From positions 1-64,000 of the forward strand of contig JOGW01000021.1 in NCBI GenBank assembly GCA_000721375.1: a DNA stretch of 64,000 nucleotides, in the 5' to 3' direction. Shown here piece by piece: positions 4,196-63,268 of this stretch. The DNA comes from Streptomyces sp. NRRL B-3428. GTDB lineage: Bacteria > Actinomycetota > Actinomycetes > Streptomycetales > Streptomycetaceae. Both the position numbers and the translations under genes were made by a program. Within the stretch, counting starts at the first letter, position 1; every line of letters starts with the position of its first letter. The notes under the pieces are model-generated. The model saw only the letters and a list, made by a program, of their open reading frames with translations. It made no database searches and had not been told where the DNA came from.

Positions 4196-4311
4196 CGCAG
4201 TGTGGTCCCCCGGGTCTGTGCCGCCTGCGGCGCGAACTCCCAGGAGCATAGGCGGTGTTGATGTCCGAGTGAGTGTTGGGATACCCGGGGTGTGAGGGTT
4301 TCTGCGTCCAT

Positions 4312-4325
4312 GTTTCACGTGAAAC
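4312..4325. promoter_or_regulatory. parS: parS site 1 (ParB binding)
   Basis: Exact 14-bp palindrome GTTTCACGTGAAAC, the Streptomyces ParB-binding sequence, in the intergenic region between the second kinase and the DUF5324-like gene. ParB loaded here nucleates the origin-proximal segregation complex. Confidence 0.95.
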
Positions 4326-4345
4326 GGGCGCGAGGGAGGCGGCAG

Positions 4346-4359
4346 GTTTCACGTGAAAC
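4346..4359. promoter_or_regulatory. parS: parS site 2 (ParB binding)
   Basis: A second exact GTTTCACGTGAAAC, 34 bp centre to centre from the first, on nearly the same helical face (about 3.2 turns). Its last base is also the first base of the neighbouring terminator stem. Confidence 0.95.
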
Positions 4360-4401
4360 GCCGAGGGGCGGGAGACCCAGCCGGTCTCCCGCCCCTCGGC
4401 G
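4359..4401 (-). terminator. Strong terminator of the DUF5324-like gene, abutting parS
   Basis: A 19-bp perfect stem (4359-4377 with 4383-4401) and a 5-nt loop. Reading on the minus strand, the stem is followed by TTTCAC, so the U-run is supplied by the adjoining parS palindrome. Confidence 0.85.
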
Positions 4402-48181: not shown

Positions 48182-49159
48182 ATGACCACGTACGACGCCG
48201 TAGTGCTCGCCGGGGGCGCGGCCAAGCGCCTCGGGGGAGTGGACAAGCCCGCCGTGCGGGTGGGCGGGCGCGCACTGCTCGACCGGGTGCTCACCGCCTG
48301 CGCCGCCGCGGGCGCCACGGTCGTGGTCGCACCGCCGCGGCGCACGGTCCGTCCCGTCGTATGGGCGCGTGAGGAACCGGCCGGCGGCGGGCCGCTTGCC
48401 GCGCTGGCGGCGGGGGTTGAGGCACTCGGTCACCGGGCCGCAGGGACTGCAGAGCCCGCAGAGCCCGCAGAGCCCGCAGAGCCCGCACAGCCCGCAGAGC
48501 CCGCAGAGCCCGCAGGGACAGGGACCGCAGAGCTCGTCCTCGTGCTCTCCTCCGATCTCCCCTTCCTCGCCGAGCACACCGTCGACCTCCTCCTCGGCGC
48601 ACTCCACGCGGCCGAAACGGCAGCCGAAGCCCCGCTCGACGGCGCTCTCTTCACCGACCCCACCGGCCGCGACCAGCCCCTGGTCGCCGTCTACCGCCGC
48701 ACCGCGCTGCGCCACGGCCTCGACCGGCTGCGCGCCGAACACGGCGGACTGAGCGGGCTTCCCCTCAGACTTCTCACCACCGGACTCGCGCTCACCCGGG
48801 TGAGCGAGCCGGAAGGCTCCCGTGCCGCGTTCGACTGCGACACCTGGGAGGACATCGCCGAAGCCCGGGCCCGGATCAGGGAGCATGAACGCGTGCTGGA
48901 TGAATGGATCACCGCAGTCAAGGACGAACTGGGTCTCGACCTGGACGTCGACACCGCCCTGCTCCTCGACCTCGCGCGCGACGCCGCCCACGGTGTGGCC
49001 CGTCCCGCGGCGCCGCTGACCACCTTCCTGGTCGGCTACGCCGCGGCGCGTGCGGGCGGCGGCCCCGAAGCCGTCGCCGAGGCCACCCGCAAGGCCGTCG
49101 CGCTCGCCGGGCGCTGGGCCGACGAGGACCGGCCCGACGCCAAGCCGGACGCCGAGTGA
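48182..49159 (+). CDS. MobA-like nucleotidyltransferase fused to DUF6457-like domain
   Basis: 325 aa. An N-terminal molybdenum-cofactor guanylyltransferase type domain: VVLAGGAAKRLGGVDKPAVRVGGRALLDRVL, LVLSSDLPFL and TGRDQPLVAVYRRTAL. A run of seven AEP units interrupts it (about residues 90-110). After about residue 238 comes a helical domain (VLDEWITAVKDELGLDLDVDTALLLDLARDAAHGVARPAAPLTTFLVGYAAARAGG) like DUF6457. It likely transfers a nucleotide to the pterin cofactor. The start codon of moeA overlaps its stop (GTGA), which supports a molybdenum role. Confidence 0.87.
   Translation: MTTYDAVVLAGGAAKRLGGVDKPAVRVGGRALLDRVLTACAAAGATVVVAPPRRTVRPVVWAREEPAGGGPLAALAAGVEALGHRAAGTAEPAEPAEPAEPAQPAEPAEPAGTGTAELVLVLSSDLPFLAEHTVDLLLGALHAAETAAEAPLDGALFTDPTGRDQPLVAVYRRTALRHGLDRLRAEHGGLSGLPLRLLTTGLALTRVSEPEGSRAAFDCDTWEDIAEARARIREHERVLDEWITAVKDELGLDLDVDTALLLDLARDAAHGVARPAAPLTTFLVGYAAARAGGGPEAVAEATRKAVALAGRWADEDRPDAKPDAE
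48450..48512 (+). repeat. Seven 9-bp tandem repeats (CAGAGCCCG) in the MobA-like gene
   Basis: Seven in-frame 9-bp units, one with a single change, encode AEP-AEP-AEP-AEP-AQP-AEP-AEP. The near-perfect units suggest a young, slippage-prone expansion that inserts a flexible loop. Confidence 0.9.
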
Positions 49160-50646
49160 CCGCGCACCCCGCGCCCGGCCAGGGCCGCCGTACGCCGGAC
49201 GCCGCGCCCGCCCGGCGCTACTCCGCGCAGTCCGGGTACGCGCAGGCCGCCGCCGACGACGGCGACTTCGAGGTGGACGAGGCGCTCGCGCTCGTCAACG
49301 AGGCATCCGCCAGGGCAGGTTCGGGCCCGGACCCGATCCCCGGCGGACGTACCCCCGCACCGGCGACGGCTCCCGGAGCCGAGGCGGCCGGGCACAAGCA
49401 CCACCACCCCCGCGCCACCGCCTGGCCCGAGGCCCGCGCCCGGGCGGCCCACGCCGCCCGCCCCCAAGCTCTTCGAGCAGGGGGTACCCCCGGCGCCCCG
49501 CGCCGCGAGTCGCACCCCGTCCCTCTCGACGAGGCCCTCGGCCGGATCCTCGCCGCCCCGCTCACCGCCCTCACCGACCTGCCCTCCTTCGACACCTCCG
49601 CCATGGACGGCTGGGCGGTCGCGGGCCCGGGCCCCTGGGACGTACGCGAGGACGCGATCCTCGCCGGGCACGCCCGCCCCCAGCCGCTCGCGGACGGCGA
49701 GGCGGTACGGATCGCCACCGGTGCCCGCGTACCGCAGGAGGCCACCGGCGTTCTGCGCAGCGAGCACGGGATCATCGACGGCCTGGGCGGACTCCATCCG
49801 CAGCGCGACGTCGTGCACGGTCAGGACATCCGGCCGCGCGGCCAGGAGTGCCGCAGCGGCGACCAGTTGCTGCCCGCCGGATCCCTGGTCACCCCCGCGC
49901 TGCTCGGACTCGCCGCGGCCGCCGGCTACGACGAGCTCGACGTGGTCGCCCGGCCCAGGGTCGAAGTGTTCGTCCTGGGCGACGAGTTGCTCACCGAGGG
50001 TCTCCCCCAGGAGGGTTTGATCCGGGACGCGCTCGGCCCGATGCTGCCGCCCTGGCTGCGCAGCCTCGGCGCCGAGGTCATCGCCGTACGCCGCCTCGGT
50101 GATGATGCGAGAGCCCTGCTCAAGGCCGTCAAGGAGTCCCCCGCGGACCTTGTCGTCACCACCGGCGGCACGGCGTCGGGACCGGTCGACCATGTGCACC
50201 CCACGCTGCGGCAGCTCGGCGCCGAGCTCCTCGTGGACGGTGTCCAGGTACGCCCCGGCCACCCCATGCTCCTGGCCGAACTGCCCGGCGGCCGCCATCT
50301 CGTCGGCCTGCCCGGCAACCCCCTGGCCGCCGTCTCCGGTCTGCTCACGCTCGCCGAGCCGCTGCTGCGCAAGCTCGCGGGCCGCCCCGCCGTCGAGCCG
50401 TACCACTGCCCGACCAGGGACGAGATCCACGGCCACCCGCACGACACCCGCCTGGTTCCCGTGGTCCTGCGCGGCGATGAAGCCGTGCCGCTGCACTACA
50501 ACGGGCCCGCGATGCTGCGCGGTATCGCCGCCTCCGACGGGCTCGCCGTGGTGCCGCCGGGCGGTGCCAAGCCCGGGCAGGAGCTCGAGATCCTCGATCT
50601 GCCATGGGCGCTGTCGCCGCTGTCACCGGAAGGGTGTTTCACGTGA
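49156..50646 (+). CDS. moeA: Molybdopterin molybdotransferase MoeA
   Basis: 496 aa, GTG start overlapping the preceding stop. An N-terminal extension of about 110 residues contains an embedded palindromic repeat sequence. The MoeA core follows: TALTDLPSFDTSAMDGWAVAGPGPWDV, RIATGARVPQEATGVLRSE, VFVLGDELL, VVTTGGTASG, VQVRPGHPMLLAEL and LVGLPGNPLAAVSGLLTLAEPLLRKL. It inserts molybdenum into molybdopterin. The stop TGA lies within a parS palindrome and overlaps the start of the K+ channel gene (GTGA). Confidence 0.93.
   Translation: MTAHPAPGQGRRTPDAAPARRYSAQSGYAQAAADDGDFEVDEALALVNEASARAGSGPDPIPGGRTPAPATAPGAEAAGHKHHHPRATAWPEARARAAHAARPQALRAGGTPGAPRRESHPVPLDEALGRILAAPLTALTDLPSFDTSAMDGWAVAGPGPWDVREDAILAGHARPQPLADGEAVRIATGARVPQEATGVLRSEHGIIDGLGGLHPQRDVVHGQDIRPRGQECRSGDQLLPAGSLVTPALLGLAAAAGYDELDVVARPRVEVFVLGDELLTEGLPQEGLIRDALGPMLPPWLRSLGAEVIAVRRLGDDARALLKAVKESPADLVVTTGGTASGPVDHVHPTLRQLGAELLVDGVQVRPGHPMLLAELPGGRHLVGLPGNPLAAVSGLLTLAEPLLRKLAGRPAVEPYHCPTRDEIHGHPHDTRLVPVVLRGDEAVPLHYNGPAMLRGIAASDGLAVVPPGGAKPGQELEILDLPWALSPLSPEGCFT
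49460..49491. repeat. Streptomyces dispersed palindromic repeat inside moeA
   Basis: CCCCCAAGCTCTTCGAGCAGGGGG is a hairpin (five C-G pairs plus CTC/GAG around TTC), followed by the palindrome GGGGGTACCCCC. This resembles a short interspersed repeat I remember as frequent between Streptomyces genes. Here it lies in frame in the moeA extension and encodes PPQALRAGGTPG. Confidence 0.65.
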
Positions 50647-50650
50647 AACA
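50635..50650. promoter_or_regulatory. parS: parS site 3, spanning the moeA stop and the next start codon
   Basis: Perfect 16-bp palindrome TGTTTCACGTGAAACA, the best-conserved parS in the window. It contains both the moeA stop (TGA, 50644-50646) and the GTG start (50643-50645) of the downstream channel gene. Confidence 0.95.
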
Positions 50651-51737
50651 GCACGGCAGCGATGTGATGGCCCGCAATGCGGACGAGCGCCTGACCAACG
50701 GGCGGGTCCATCTGCCCAAGCGGGTCGTGGAACGTCCGATGCGCCAGGTCGGCAAGCGCCTCGCGATGGCGCTGAGCGTGCTGGTCGCGACGGCGCTGCT
50801 CGTGTACTTCGACCGCGACGGCTACAACGACAACACCGACGGCAGCGTCGATCTGCTCGACGCCTTCTACTACGCGACCGTCACACTCTCCACCACCGGC
50901 TACGGCGATATCGTCCCGGCCAGTGACTTCGCCCGCCTCATCAACATCTTCGTCATCACACCGCTGCGTGTGCTCTTCCTGATCATCCTGGTCGGCACCA
51001 CTCTCGAGGTCCTCACCACACGCACCCGTGAGGAGTGGCGACTGAACCGCTGGAGGTCCTCCTTGCGTGACCACACCGTCGTCGTCGGCTTCGGCACCAA
51101 GGGCCGTTCGGCGATCCAGACCCTGTGCGCCACGGGTCTGAAGAAGACACAGATCGTGGTGGTCGACCCCAGCAACAAGGTGATCGAGACCGCCACCGCC
51201 GAAGGCTTCGTCGGTGTCGTCGGTGACGCCACCCGCAGCGAGGTGCTGCTCCGCGCCGAACTGCAGAAGGCCCGCCAGGTCGTCATCGCCACCCAGCGCG
51301 ACGACACGGCGGTCCTGGTGACGCTCACCGCCCGCCAGCTGAACCGGGCCGCCAAGATCGTCGCAGCCGTACGGGAAGAGGAGAACGCCCAGCTCCTACG
51401 GCAGTCCGGCGCCGACGCCGTCATCACCAGCGCCAGCGCGGCCGGCCGGCTGCTCGGTCTCTCGGTGCTCAGCCCCAGCGCCGGCACGGTCATGGAGGAC
51501 CTCATCCAGCAGGGCTCCGGGCTCGATCTCGTGGAGCGGCCGGTGATAAAGGCCGAGGTCGGCAAGAGCGTGCGGGAGACGGAGGACCTGGTGGTCAGCG
51601 TGCTGCGCGGACATCGCCTCCTCGGATACGACGATCCGGCGGCCTCTCCGCTGCAGTTGACGGACCGTCTGATCACGATCGTGCGGGCCACACCGGCAGC
51701 TCCGGCGCCCCCGGACACCCGGCCGCTGGCGCGGTAG
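50643..51737 (+). CDS. Potassium channel family protein with TrkA-N and TrkA-C domains
   Basis: 364 aa from the GTG at 50643. GGAAGG lies nine bases upstream and the start overlaps the moeA stop (GTGA); ATG at 50667 or earlier starts are alternatives. A two-helix ion-channel module (about 32-110): first helix, pore with the K+ filter TLSTTGYGD, and second helix ITPLRVLFLIILVGTTLEVL. An RCK/TrkA-N domain follows (HTVVVGFGTKGRSAIQTL, GxGxxG) and then TrkA-C. It conducts or gates K+ in response to a cytosolic nucleotide. Confidence 0.9.
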   Translation: MKQHGSDVMARNADERLTNGRVHLPKRVVERPMRQVGKRLAMALSVLVATALLVYFDRDGYNDNTDGSVDLLDAFYYATVTLSTTGYGDIVPASDFARLINIFVITPLRVLFLIILVGTTLEVLTTRTREEWRLNRWRSSLRDHTVVVGFGTKGRSAIQTLCATGLKKTQIVVVDPSNKVIETATAEGFVGVVGDATRSEVLLRAELQKARQVVIATQRDDTAVLVTLTARQLNRAAKIVAAVREEENAQLLRQSGADAVITSASAAGRLLGLSVLSPSAGTVMEDLIQQGSGLDLVERPVIKAEVGKSVRETEDLVVSVLRGHRLLGYDDPAASPLQLTDRLITIVRATPAAPAPPDTRPLAR

Positions 51738-61759: not shown

Positions 61760-63268
61760 GTGACGATCATGACTGATACACGGTTCCGCGAGTTCAAGAT
61801 GCCGGACGTCGGCGAAGGGCTCACCGAGGCCGAGATCCTCAAGTGGTACGTCCAGCCCGGTGACACCGTCACCGACGGGCAGGTCGTGTGCGAGGTCGAG
61901 ACCGCCAAGGCCGCGGTCGAGCTGCCGATTCCGTACGACGGTGTGGTGCACGAGCTGCGCTTCCCCGAGGGGACGACGGTCGATGTCGGCCAGGTGATCA
62001 TCTCGGTGGATGTGGCGCCCGGGTCGGCGCCGGTGGAGGCGGCCGCTCCGGCTGCTGCCGAGGTTCCCGCTCCCGCTCCGGCTGCCGAGGCCGCCGAGCC
62101 CGAGGGGCGTCAGCCGGTGCTCGTCGGGTACGGGGTGTCGCAGAGCTCGACCAAGCGGCGGGCCCGTAAGGGGGCTGAGTCTTCGGCGGCCCCGGCTCAG
62201 GACTCGGCCGCGCCCGCGGGAACGTACTACGCCTCGCCCGCCGCGGCTGCGGTCCAGGCCGAGCTGAACGGGCACGCGGCCGCTGCGCCTGTCGCCCCGG
62301 CTTCGGCCGCGGCTCCGGTCGTCGGCGCGAAGCCGCTGGCCAAGCCGCCGGTGCGCAAGCTCGCCAAGGACCTGGGCGTCGACCTGGCCACGGTCACGCC
62401 GAGCGGGCCCGACGGGATCATCACGCGGGACGATGTGCACGCGGCGGTGGCGGCGGTCTCCGCGCCGGCTGCCCCGGCCCAGGTCCAGGCCCCTGCACCC
62501 GTTGCTCCCGTTTCACGTGAAACAACTCCCGTTGCGGCTGCGCCTGTTCAGGCCCCGGCTGCGGGAGTACGGGAGACCCGTATCCCGGTCAAGGGTGTCC
62601 GCAAGGCCACCGCTGCCGCGATGGTCGGGTCGGCGTTCACGGCGCCGCATGTCACCGAGTTCGTGACCGTCGATGTCACGCGCACGATGAAGCTCGTCGA
62701 GGAGCTCAAGTCCGACAAGGACATGCAGGGGCTGCGGGTCAACCCGCTGCTGCTCATCGCGAAGGCGCTGCTCGTCGCGATCAAGCGCAACCCGGACGTC
62801 AACGCGTCCTGGGACGAAGCGGCCCAGGAGATCGTGCTCAAGCACTACGTGAACCTGGGTATCGCGGCAGCGACTCCGCGCGGTCTGATCGTGCCGAACA
62901 TCAAGGACGCGCACGACAAGACGCTGCCGGGGCTCGCTTCCGCACTCGGTGAGCTGGTGTCCACGGCCCGTGAGGGCAAGACGACGCCGGCGGCGATGCA
63001 GGGCGGCACGGTCACGATCACCAACGTGGGCGTCTTCGGTGTCGACACCGGTACGCCGATCTTGAACCCCGGTGAATCGGCGATTCTCGCGGTCGGCGCG
63101 ATCAAGCTCCAGCCGTGGGTCCACAAGGGCAAGATCAAGGCGCGTCAGGTGATGACCCTGGCGCTGTCCTTCGACCACCGCCTGGTGGACGGGGAACTCG
63201 GCTCCAAGGTCCTCGCGGATGTGGCGGCGATCCTGGAGCAGCCGAAGCGGCTGATCACCTGGGCCTGA
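61760..63268 (+). CDS. bkdC: Branched-chain 2-oxoacid dehydrogenase E2 (second cluster)
   Basis: 502 aa from the GTG at 61760, chosen because GAGGAG lies six bases upstream; the ATG at 61769 is the alternative. A lipoyl domain (K50 in VETAKAAVELP), an Ala/Pro/Gln linker, a subunit-binding domain (KPPVRKLAKDLGVDLATVTPSGPDGIITRDDVHAA), a second Pro/Ala linker that contains the in-frame parS (APVSRETTPV), and a catalytic domain ending LALSFDHRLVDGELG (HRLVDG). It transfers branched acyl groups to CoA. Confidence 0.94.
   Translation: MTIMTDTRFREFKMPDVGEGLTEAEILKWYVQPGDTVTDGQVVCEVETAKAAVELPIPYDGVVHELRFPEGTTVDVGQVIISVDVAPGSAPVEAAAPAAAEVPAPAPAAEAAEPEGRQPVLVGYGVSQSSTKRRARKGAESSAAPAQDSAAPAGTYYASPAAAAVQAELNGHAAAAPVAPASAAAPVVGAKPLAKPPVRKLAKDLGVDLATVTPSGPDGIITRDDVHAAVAAVSAPAAPAQVQAPAPVAPVSRETTPVAAAPVQAPAAGVRETRIPVKGVRKATAAAMVGSAFTAPHVTEFVTVDVTRTMKLVEELKSDKDMQGLRVNPLLLIAKALLVAIKRNPDVNASWDEAAQEIVLKHYVNLGIAAATPRGLIVPNIKDAHDKTLPGLASALGELVSTAREGKTTPAAMQGGTVTITNVGVFGVDTGTPILNPGESAILAVGAIKLQPWVHKGKIKARQVMTLALSFDHRLVDGELGSKVLADVAAILEQPKRLITWA
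62510..62523. promoter_or_regulatory. parS: parS site 4, inside bkdC
   Basis: Exact GTTTCACGTGAAAC within the bkdC coding sequence, read in frame as V-S-R-E-T in the unstructured linker before the catalytic domain. Confidence 0.93.

Follow-up and report, generated by a model that had tools for sequence, protein, structure and literature searches.

A parS palindrome on the moeA stop and the likely start of a potassium-channel gene in Streptomyces

The Streptomyces DNA considered here (the window, 64,000 nucleotides in length) carries a run of genes in which a MobA-like gene is followed by a moeA-like gene and this, in turn, by a gene for a potassium-channel-like protein (Table 1). The run contains two junctions of the GTGA type, in which the stop codon of one gene overlaps a GTG of the next. 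At the first, the TGA of the MobA-like gene (49157-49159) overlaps GTG 49156 in the moeA frame; at the second, the stop of moeA and the predicted start of the channel gene share bases between two protein-coding genes, and only this second junction lies within a parS site. The MobA-like protein itself contains a run of AEP/AQP repeats (at about 48449-48514 of the window).

The letters of the junction and the frame of moeA confirm what the preliminary description of this DNA had claimed, namely that a perfect 16-bp parS holds both the moeA TGA and the GTG of the channel gene. The site was also correctly placed in the spacer behind the Shine-Dalgarno (SD)-like GGAAGG, this spacer being 9 nt long up to the GTG, of which 8 constitute the left half of the 16-mer. 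As regards the interval assigned to the feature, 50628 to 50667, the presence of parS stands, whereas the limits do not, the interval beginning at the SD-like element and the palindrome proper being shorter (Table 1).

Table 1. Features of the moeA/channel junction, further parS sites of the window and other genes with parS on a start
Feature	Position	Strand	Remarks
MobA-like NTP transferase gene	48182..49159	+	with DUF6457 domain; 5' of moeA, same run
moeA-like gene	49156..50646	+	domains MoeA_N, MoCF_biosynth, MoeA_C; GTG 49156 is a putative start, chosen by a home-made gene caller
SD-like GGAAGG	50628..50633	+	9 nt 5' of the channel GTG
parS, perfect 16-bp palindrome TGTTTCACGTGAAACA	50635..50650	.	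0 mismatches; 14-bp core 50636-50649
GTG at the centre of parS	50643..50645	+	likely start of the channel gene, judged from sequence
TGA stop of moeA inside parS	50644..50646	+	4-nt GTGA overlap with the channel GTG; MoeA C-terminus -CFT, encoded in the left half of parS
Potassium-channel-like gene	50643..51737	+	Ion_trans_2 and TrkA_N; 364 aa counted from the parS GTG
Further parS	4311..4326	.	perfect 14-bp core; window pattern search
Further parS	4345..4360	.	perfect 14-bp core; window pattern search
Further parS	62509..62524	.	perfect 14-bp core, within a called gene
CydD-like gene	L180:1-1507, G000 C6:220452	-	perfect parS, its central GTG being the start and preceded by GGAGG
Third gene, 208-aa open frame	L182:1508-2131, G000 C6:242524	+	no Pfam match; start on the parS GTG, or 9 bases earlier (gene caller)
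326-aa open frame	L181:530-1507, G000 C6:230254	-	no Pfam match; parS GTG as start, preceded by GCGGAGG

Allowing up to 3 mismatches, the window contains five parS-like matches, whereas 100 shuffles gave 0.05 on average. In the whole genome (8.57 Mb in 74 contigs) the 14-bp core GTTTCACGTGAAAC occurs in 21 perfect copies, of which contig C6 carries 17 and C21, the contig of the window, 4, while the perfect 16-mer occurs eight times, the junction site being one of them, and cores with one mismatch are found in three further places; a reversed-pattern control gave 0 matches in the same genome. The perfect cores are thus confined to 2 of the 74 contigs, and both parB (C6:281657-281935) and dnaA (C6:288590-289075) lie on C6, as is expected of parS clustering in the origin region. 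In two relatives, G134 and G129, the site on the channel gene and that on the CydD-like gene are about 118 and 135 kb apart. ParB itself is encoded, with one PF02195 match in the genome (125.5 bits). The junction site, a putative ParB site, is by its sequence a member of the parS set of this genome. It has the same sequence as the chromosomal parS loading sites of ParB in the ParABS system, which form a cluster at the Streptomyces origin and are found here on C6, together with parB and dnaA, or on C21; it differs from them in lying on a likely translation start. For comparison, the accessible part of a paper on S. venezuelae gives 16 parS sites in one place and 17 in another (PMC12511625). A second short DnaA-like stretch (L374, G000 C23:17178-17423) was also found, with a PF00308 match of 32.2 bits and an internal stop codon.

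Which codon starts the channel gene was judged from 100 pooled loci, comprising the window, 80 best-match loci and 19 others (L090-L108), all chosen for having parS on the start, so that counts among them provide no rate; they include one pair with no difference over 1 kb and two near-identical pairs. Since loci share ancestry, the counts are not independent. The central GTG is preceded by an SD-like match (at least 4 nt, at a spacing of 4-13) in 71 of the 100, compared with 18.6% of 9582 other GTGs of the same loci, the spacing being 8-10 in 67 of the 71; in the other 29 loci there is no SD match of at least 4 nt for this codon. The in-frame codon at -9, the TG of which belongs to the 16-bp site, is GTG or ATG in 94 of the 100 loci and has an SD-like match at the same spacing in one. 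Neither of two other in-frame codons is conserved as a start: at -39 (ATG 50604 in the window) ATG is outside the 12 commonest codons, and at +24 ATG is present in 47 of 99 distinct junctions. The latter corresponds to ATG 50667, the alternative start considered in the preliminary description together with a lack of conservation of the palindrome, which is, in fact, conserved. The central GTG is therefore the likely start of the channel gene, as far as sequence can indicate. Our home-made gene caller nevertheless picks the -9 codon, 2 bases before the 14-bp core, for the channel gene of one relative (G129, with a 5-nt SD match), and likewise for the third gene of Table 1 in G000 and for a gene in G134.

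How widely the arrangement is kept was examined in a family-wide draw of 121 genomes, of which 28, including that of the window, belong to the genus. All 28 junctions were read, and the comparison of parS and GTGA suggested earlier for many Streptomyces genomes showed the channel GTG to lie in parS in 20 of them, allowing one mismatch: the 14-bp core is perfect in 18 and has one mismatch in 2 (L092, L094). The site is absent from this position in 8 (G009, G044, G052, G097, G103, G106, G112, G115). In three of the latter (G009, G052, G106) the moeA stop still lies in a parS and MoeA has the -CFT terminus; the best channel-like match lies on the strand opposite to moeA. The moeA stop of these three genomes (loci L341 in G052 and L342 in G106) is followed within about 100 bp by one (G009) or two more parS. 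In the other genera, with 93 genomes in the draw, a site near the channel start was found in 0 of the 62 junctions covered, the remaining 31 including many weak or partial matches. The best-match set has parS on the start in 80 of 80 loci (79 perfect cores, and one mismatch in L024), but is biased, being the best 80 of 533 obtained with six peptide patterns, one of which spans the start; another pattern search, with a match in 385 of 392 genomes, is too unspecific to put sites at the junction and serves as a lead only. The presence of parS on the channel start is not a matter of chance.

Within the pooled loci the arrangement takes several states. That stop, start and parS occupy the same bases, as originally described for the window, is supported as the commonest of these, TGA and GTG lying within the same parS in 73 of the 100. 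In 15 loci (L016, L021, L022, L032, L035, L040, L046, L056, L061, L062, L071, L075, L083, L095 and L100) a distance of 34 to 145 nt separates stop from start and each has a parS to itself, a third parS lying between them in some of these loci; a further 8 have the moeA stop upstream and not covered by a site, and the remaining 4 have a moeA match that is broken or missing. In L100 two parS lie 35 bp apart with similar sequence after each, a pattern such as a short tandem duplication would give. Where the moeA stop is more than 20 nt upstream, the left half GTTTCAC is intact in all 25 loci, including two with a broken moeA match (L017, L043). To judge from these junctions, the unit kept by evolution is parS on the start, rather than stop and start within one parS.

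The protein-coding letters under the palindrome point in the same direction. Codon 2 of the channel gene is AAA in 99 of the 100 loci and AGA once, although elsewhere in the same genes lysine is encoded by AAG 983 times and by AAA only 78 times (of 1061); this near-invariance of a rare codon argues for selection on the site at the level of DNA. The columns adjoining parS are much less conserved. Codon 3 is CTT in 76 of the 100 loci, though CTT is rare among the leucine codons there (147 of 4214), and its last T falls outside parS. On the other side of the centre, the letters TGT TTC ACG TGA, which form the left part of parS, give MoeA the C-terminus -CFT: of the tree rows, 37 of the 42 that carry the site at the junction end in this way, and none of the 50 that lack it. 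The needs of translation (SD sequence, start codon and coding sequence) also keep part of the region conserved.

The channel gene is not the only one with parS on its start (Table 1). The most widespread further case is an ABC transporter gene (ABC_membrane and ABC_tran domains), which we take to be that usually named CydD. It starts on the parS GTG in 53 of 61 genus genomes (30 of 30 and 22 of 29 loci in two sets, together with G134), and the 8 CydD-like genes lacking parS (seven of the 29, and that of G170) have the same start position, occupied by ATG in 6 and GTG in 2. A family-wide draw of 46 genomes, in which 30 loci were read, gave 9 perfect sites, 1 with one mismatch and 20 loci without; of these 10 sites, Streptomyces and one other genus (g7) contributed 5 each. 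Relatives of the third gene were matched in 36 of 61 genomes. Of the 30 loci read, the last three being only distantly related (at most 36% identity), 12 carry parS on the start; others, for example L233 and L245, have ATGAAG at that place. A search of the 60 other genus genomes gave no relative for the 326-aa frame, which for this reason adds no evidence of conservation.

In general, parS sites are not start sites. Among 83 parS in five genomes (G000 in part), the home-made gene caller placed 7 starts exactly on the site, 4 belonging to the CydD-like gene, 2 to the channel gene and 1 to the 326-aa frame. Thus 7 of 166 parS GTGs (4.2%) were called as starts against 1.6 expected, the figure for all GTGs being 0.98% (p 0.0014, uncorrected for ancestry). 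An earlier and looser test of start-likeness, the background of which (3.2% of GTGs) was too permissive, gave no enrichment, with 3 of 104 parS GTGs against 3.3 expected. Since the gene-caller test followed this failed one, and since the genomes share ancestry, the enrichment is only suggestive.

The history of the junction was followed on a moeA tree in which 42 of the 92 rows have a junction parS and 50 have none; every fourth of the 80 best-match loci was included and short or broken MoeA matches were left out. A single change of state was found, on a branch with support 100/97, and one change remained when the last 8 residues were trimmed from the rows reaching the trait (SH-aLRT 97). Four genus members without parS (L109, L110, L114, L127) form the neighbouring branch, and in L109 and L120 a GTGA overlap of stop and start is present without parS. 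The simplest reading is a gain of parS onto a pre-existing overlap, the tree by itself being compatible with gain and with loss.

Taking together what is directly established, that is, the geometry, the conservation, the one change on the tree and the recurrence at other genes, we consider it very probable that the site belongs to the origin-proximal cluster as an ordinary loading site for ParB and that it was built, in an ancestor within the genus Streptomyces, onto a GTGA overlap already present between moeA and the channel gene. The same bases would then serve ParB as DNA and the ribosome as mRNA, with the left half GTTTCAC forming the spacer between SD and start and the centre supplying both TGA and GTG, so that the right half would cost no more than a single AAA (lysine) codon and one base of codon 3. 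With GTGA at its centre and a left half that fits an SD spacer, parS suits regions of translation start, and it may have been kept where the coding cost is low. Counting against this reading are the 8 of 28 genus genomes without parS on the channel GTG. A broader scenario, in which parS was repeatedly built into initiation regions and multiplied by short tandem duplication of these regions, with ParB loading tying expression to the segregation cycle, is unlikely, though not negligible.

The geometry could mislead if the functional start of the channel gene were not at the centre of parS and were instead ATG 50604, GTG 50634 or ATG 50667, all of them in frame in the window. The -9 codon is GTG or ATG in most of the pooled loci, and its choice by the gene caller led us to raise the odds of another start and to lower slightly those of the ordinary loading site on the central GTG. 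The other two are conserved too poorly, however, and the disparity in SD-like matches favours the central GTG over the -9 codon, as do the CydD-like orthologues without parS, which start exactly at the position of the parS GTG; moreover, a start at -9 would still share two bases with the 16-bp site. We therefore regard a start elsewhere as improbable. Since the parS centre CACGTGA contains GTG and TGA in any copy, a parS arising near a start easily overlaps it, and one might ask whether the coincidence arose by chance and was never under selection. This is scarcely credible: the overlap is kept in most of the genus genomes examined at two genes, codon 2 is biased to AAA, and a chance origin would require shared ancestry without constraint, yet neighbouring columns are far less conserved.

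Two further explanations assign the palindrome a role in expression. It could be conserved as an RNA hairpin controlling translation instead of as parS, and the isolated 16-mer does fold, at -3.9 kcal/mol, into a 6-bp stem with the GT of the GTG in its 4-base loop, while the double-site junction of L100 is more stable than its shuffles (z -2.78, 3 of 200 shuffles being as good). The junction of the window, however, does not exceed shuffles in stability (z 0.27 over 80 nt and -0.30 over 40 nt), its minimum-energy fold is another structure, and the sequence is shared exactly with the remaining sites of the cluster, the majority of them not on a start. For want of excess stability in the window the hairpin was rejected, and we hold it very improbable. 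More serious, albeit still unlikely, is the proposal that ParB bound over the start region regulates the channel gene, and the CydD-like gene, thereby coupling the state of segregation to expression. Several genes in relatives have parS on the start, which would suit such control, and Pseudomonas aeruginosa ParB is reported to repress promoters adjoining parS3 and parS4 (PMC5521831). Against this, the target of ParB is DNA and not the start of an mRNA, and parS and start alone account for the constraint without regulation. The junctions are nonetheless testable candidates for effects of ParB on expression.

With the ordinary loading site as the preferred reading, the junction may be set beside arrangements already familiar. 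Stop and start codons overlapping as GTGA or ATGA are well known and are associated with translational coupling; the present junction resembles them in its 4-nt GTGA overlap behind an SD-like sequence, and the preceding gene pair is also joined by GTGA, but here the overlap sits in a protein-binding palindrome that fixes both spacer and codon 2. Likewise, parS within coding sequence is known in B. subtilis, where a ParB site also lies over codons; unlike that case, the site here covers a likely initiation region, is kept in most of the genus genomes examined and occurs at more than one gene. A parS on a start codon is not mentioned in the accessible text of PMC12207404, PMC12511625 or PMC7022226, nor in the literature searched, to which most subscription papers and supplements did not belong. 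The junction provides a clear case of one short sequence with two unrelated conserved signals, for segregation and for the start and stop of translation, while its natural variants, in which the start lacks parS or in which stop and start are separated and parS is doubled, allow the two roles to be tested apart from each other. The junction further illustrates where centromere-like sites can be accommodated in a gene-dense origin region.
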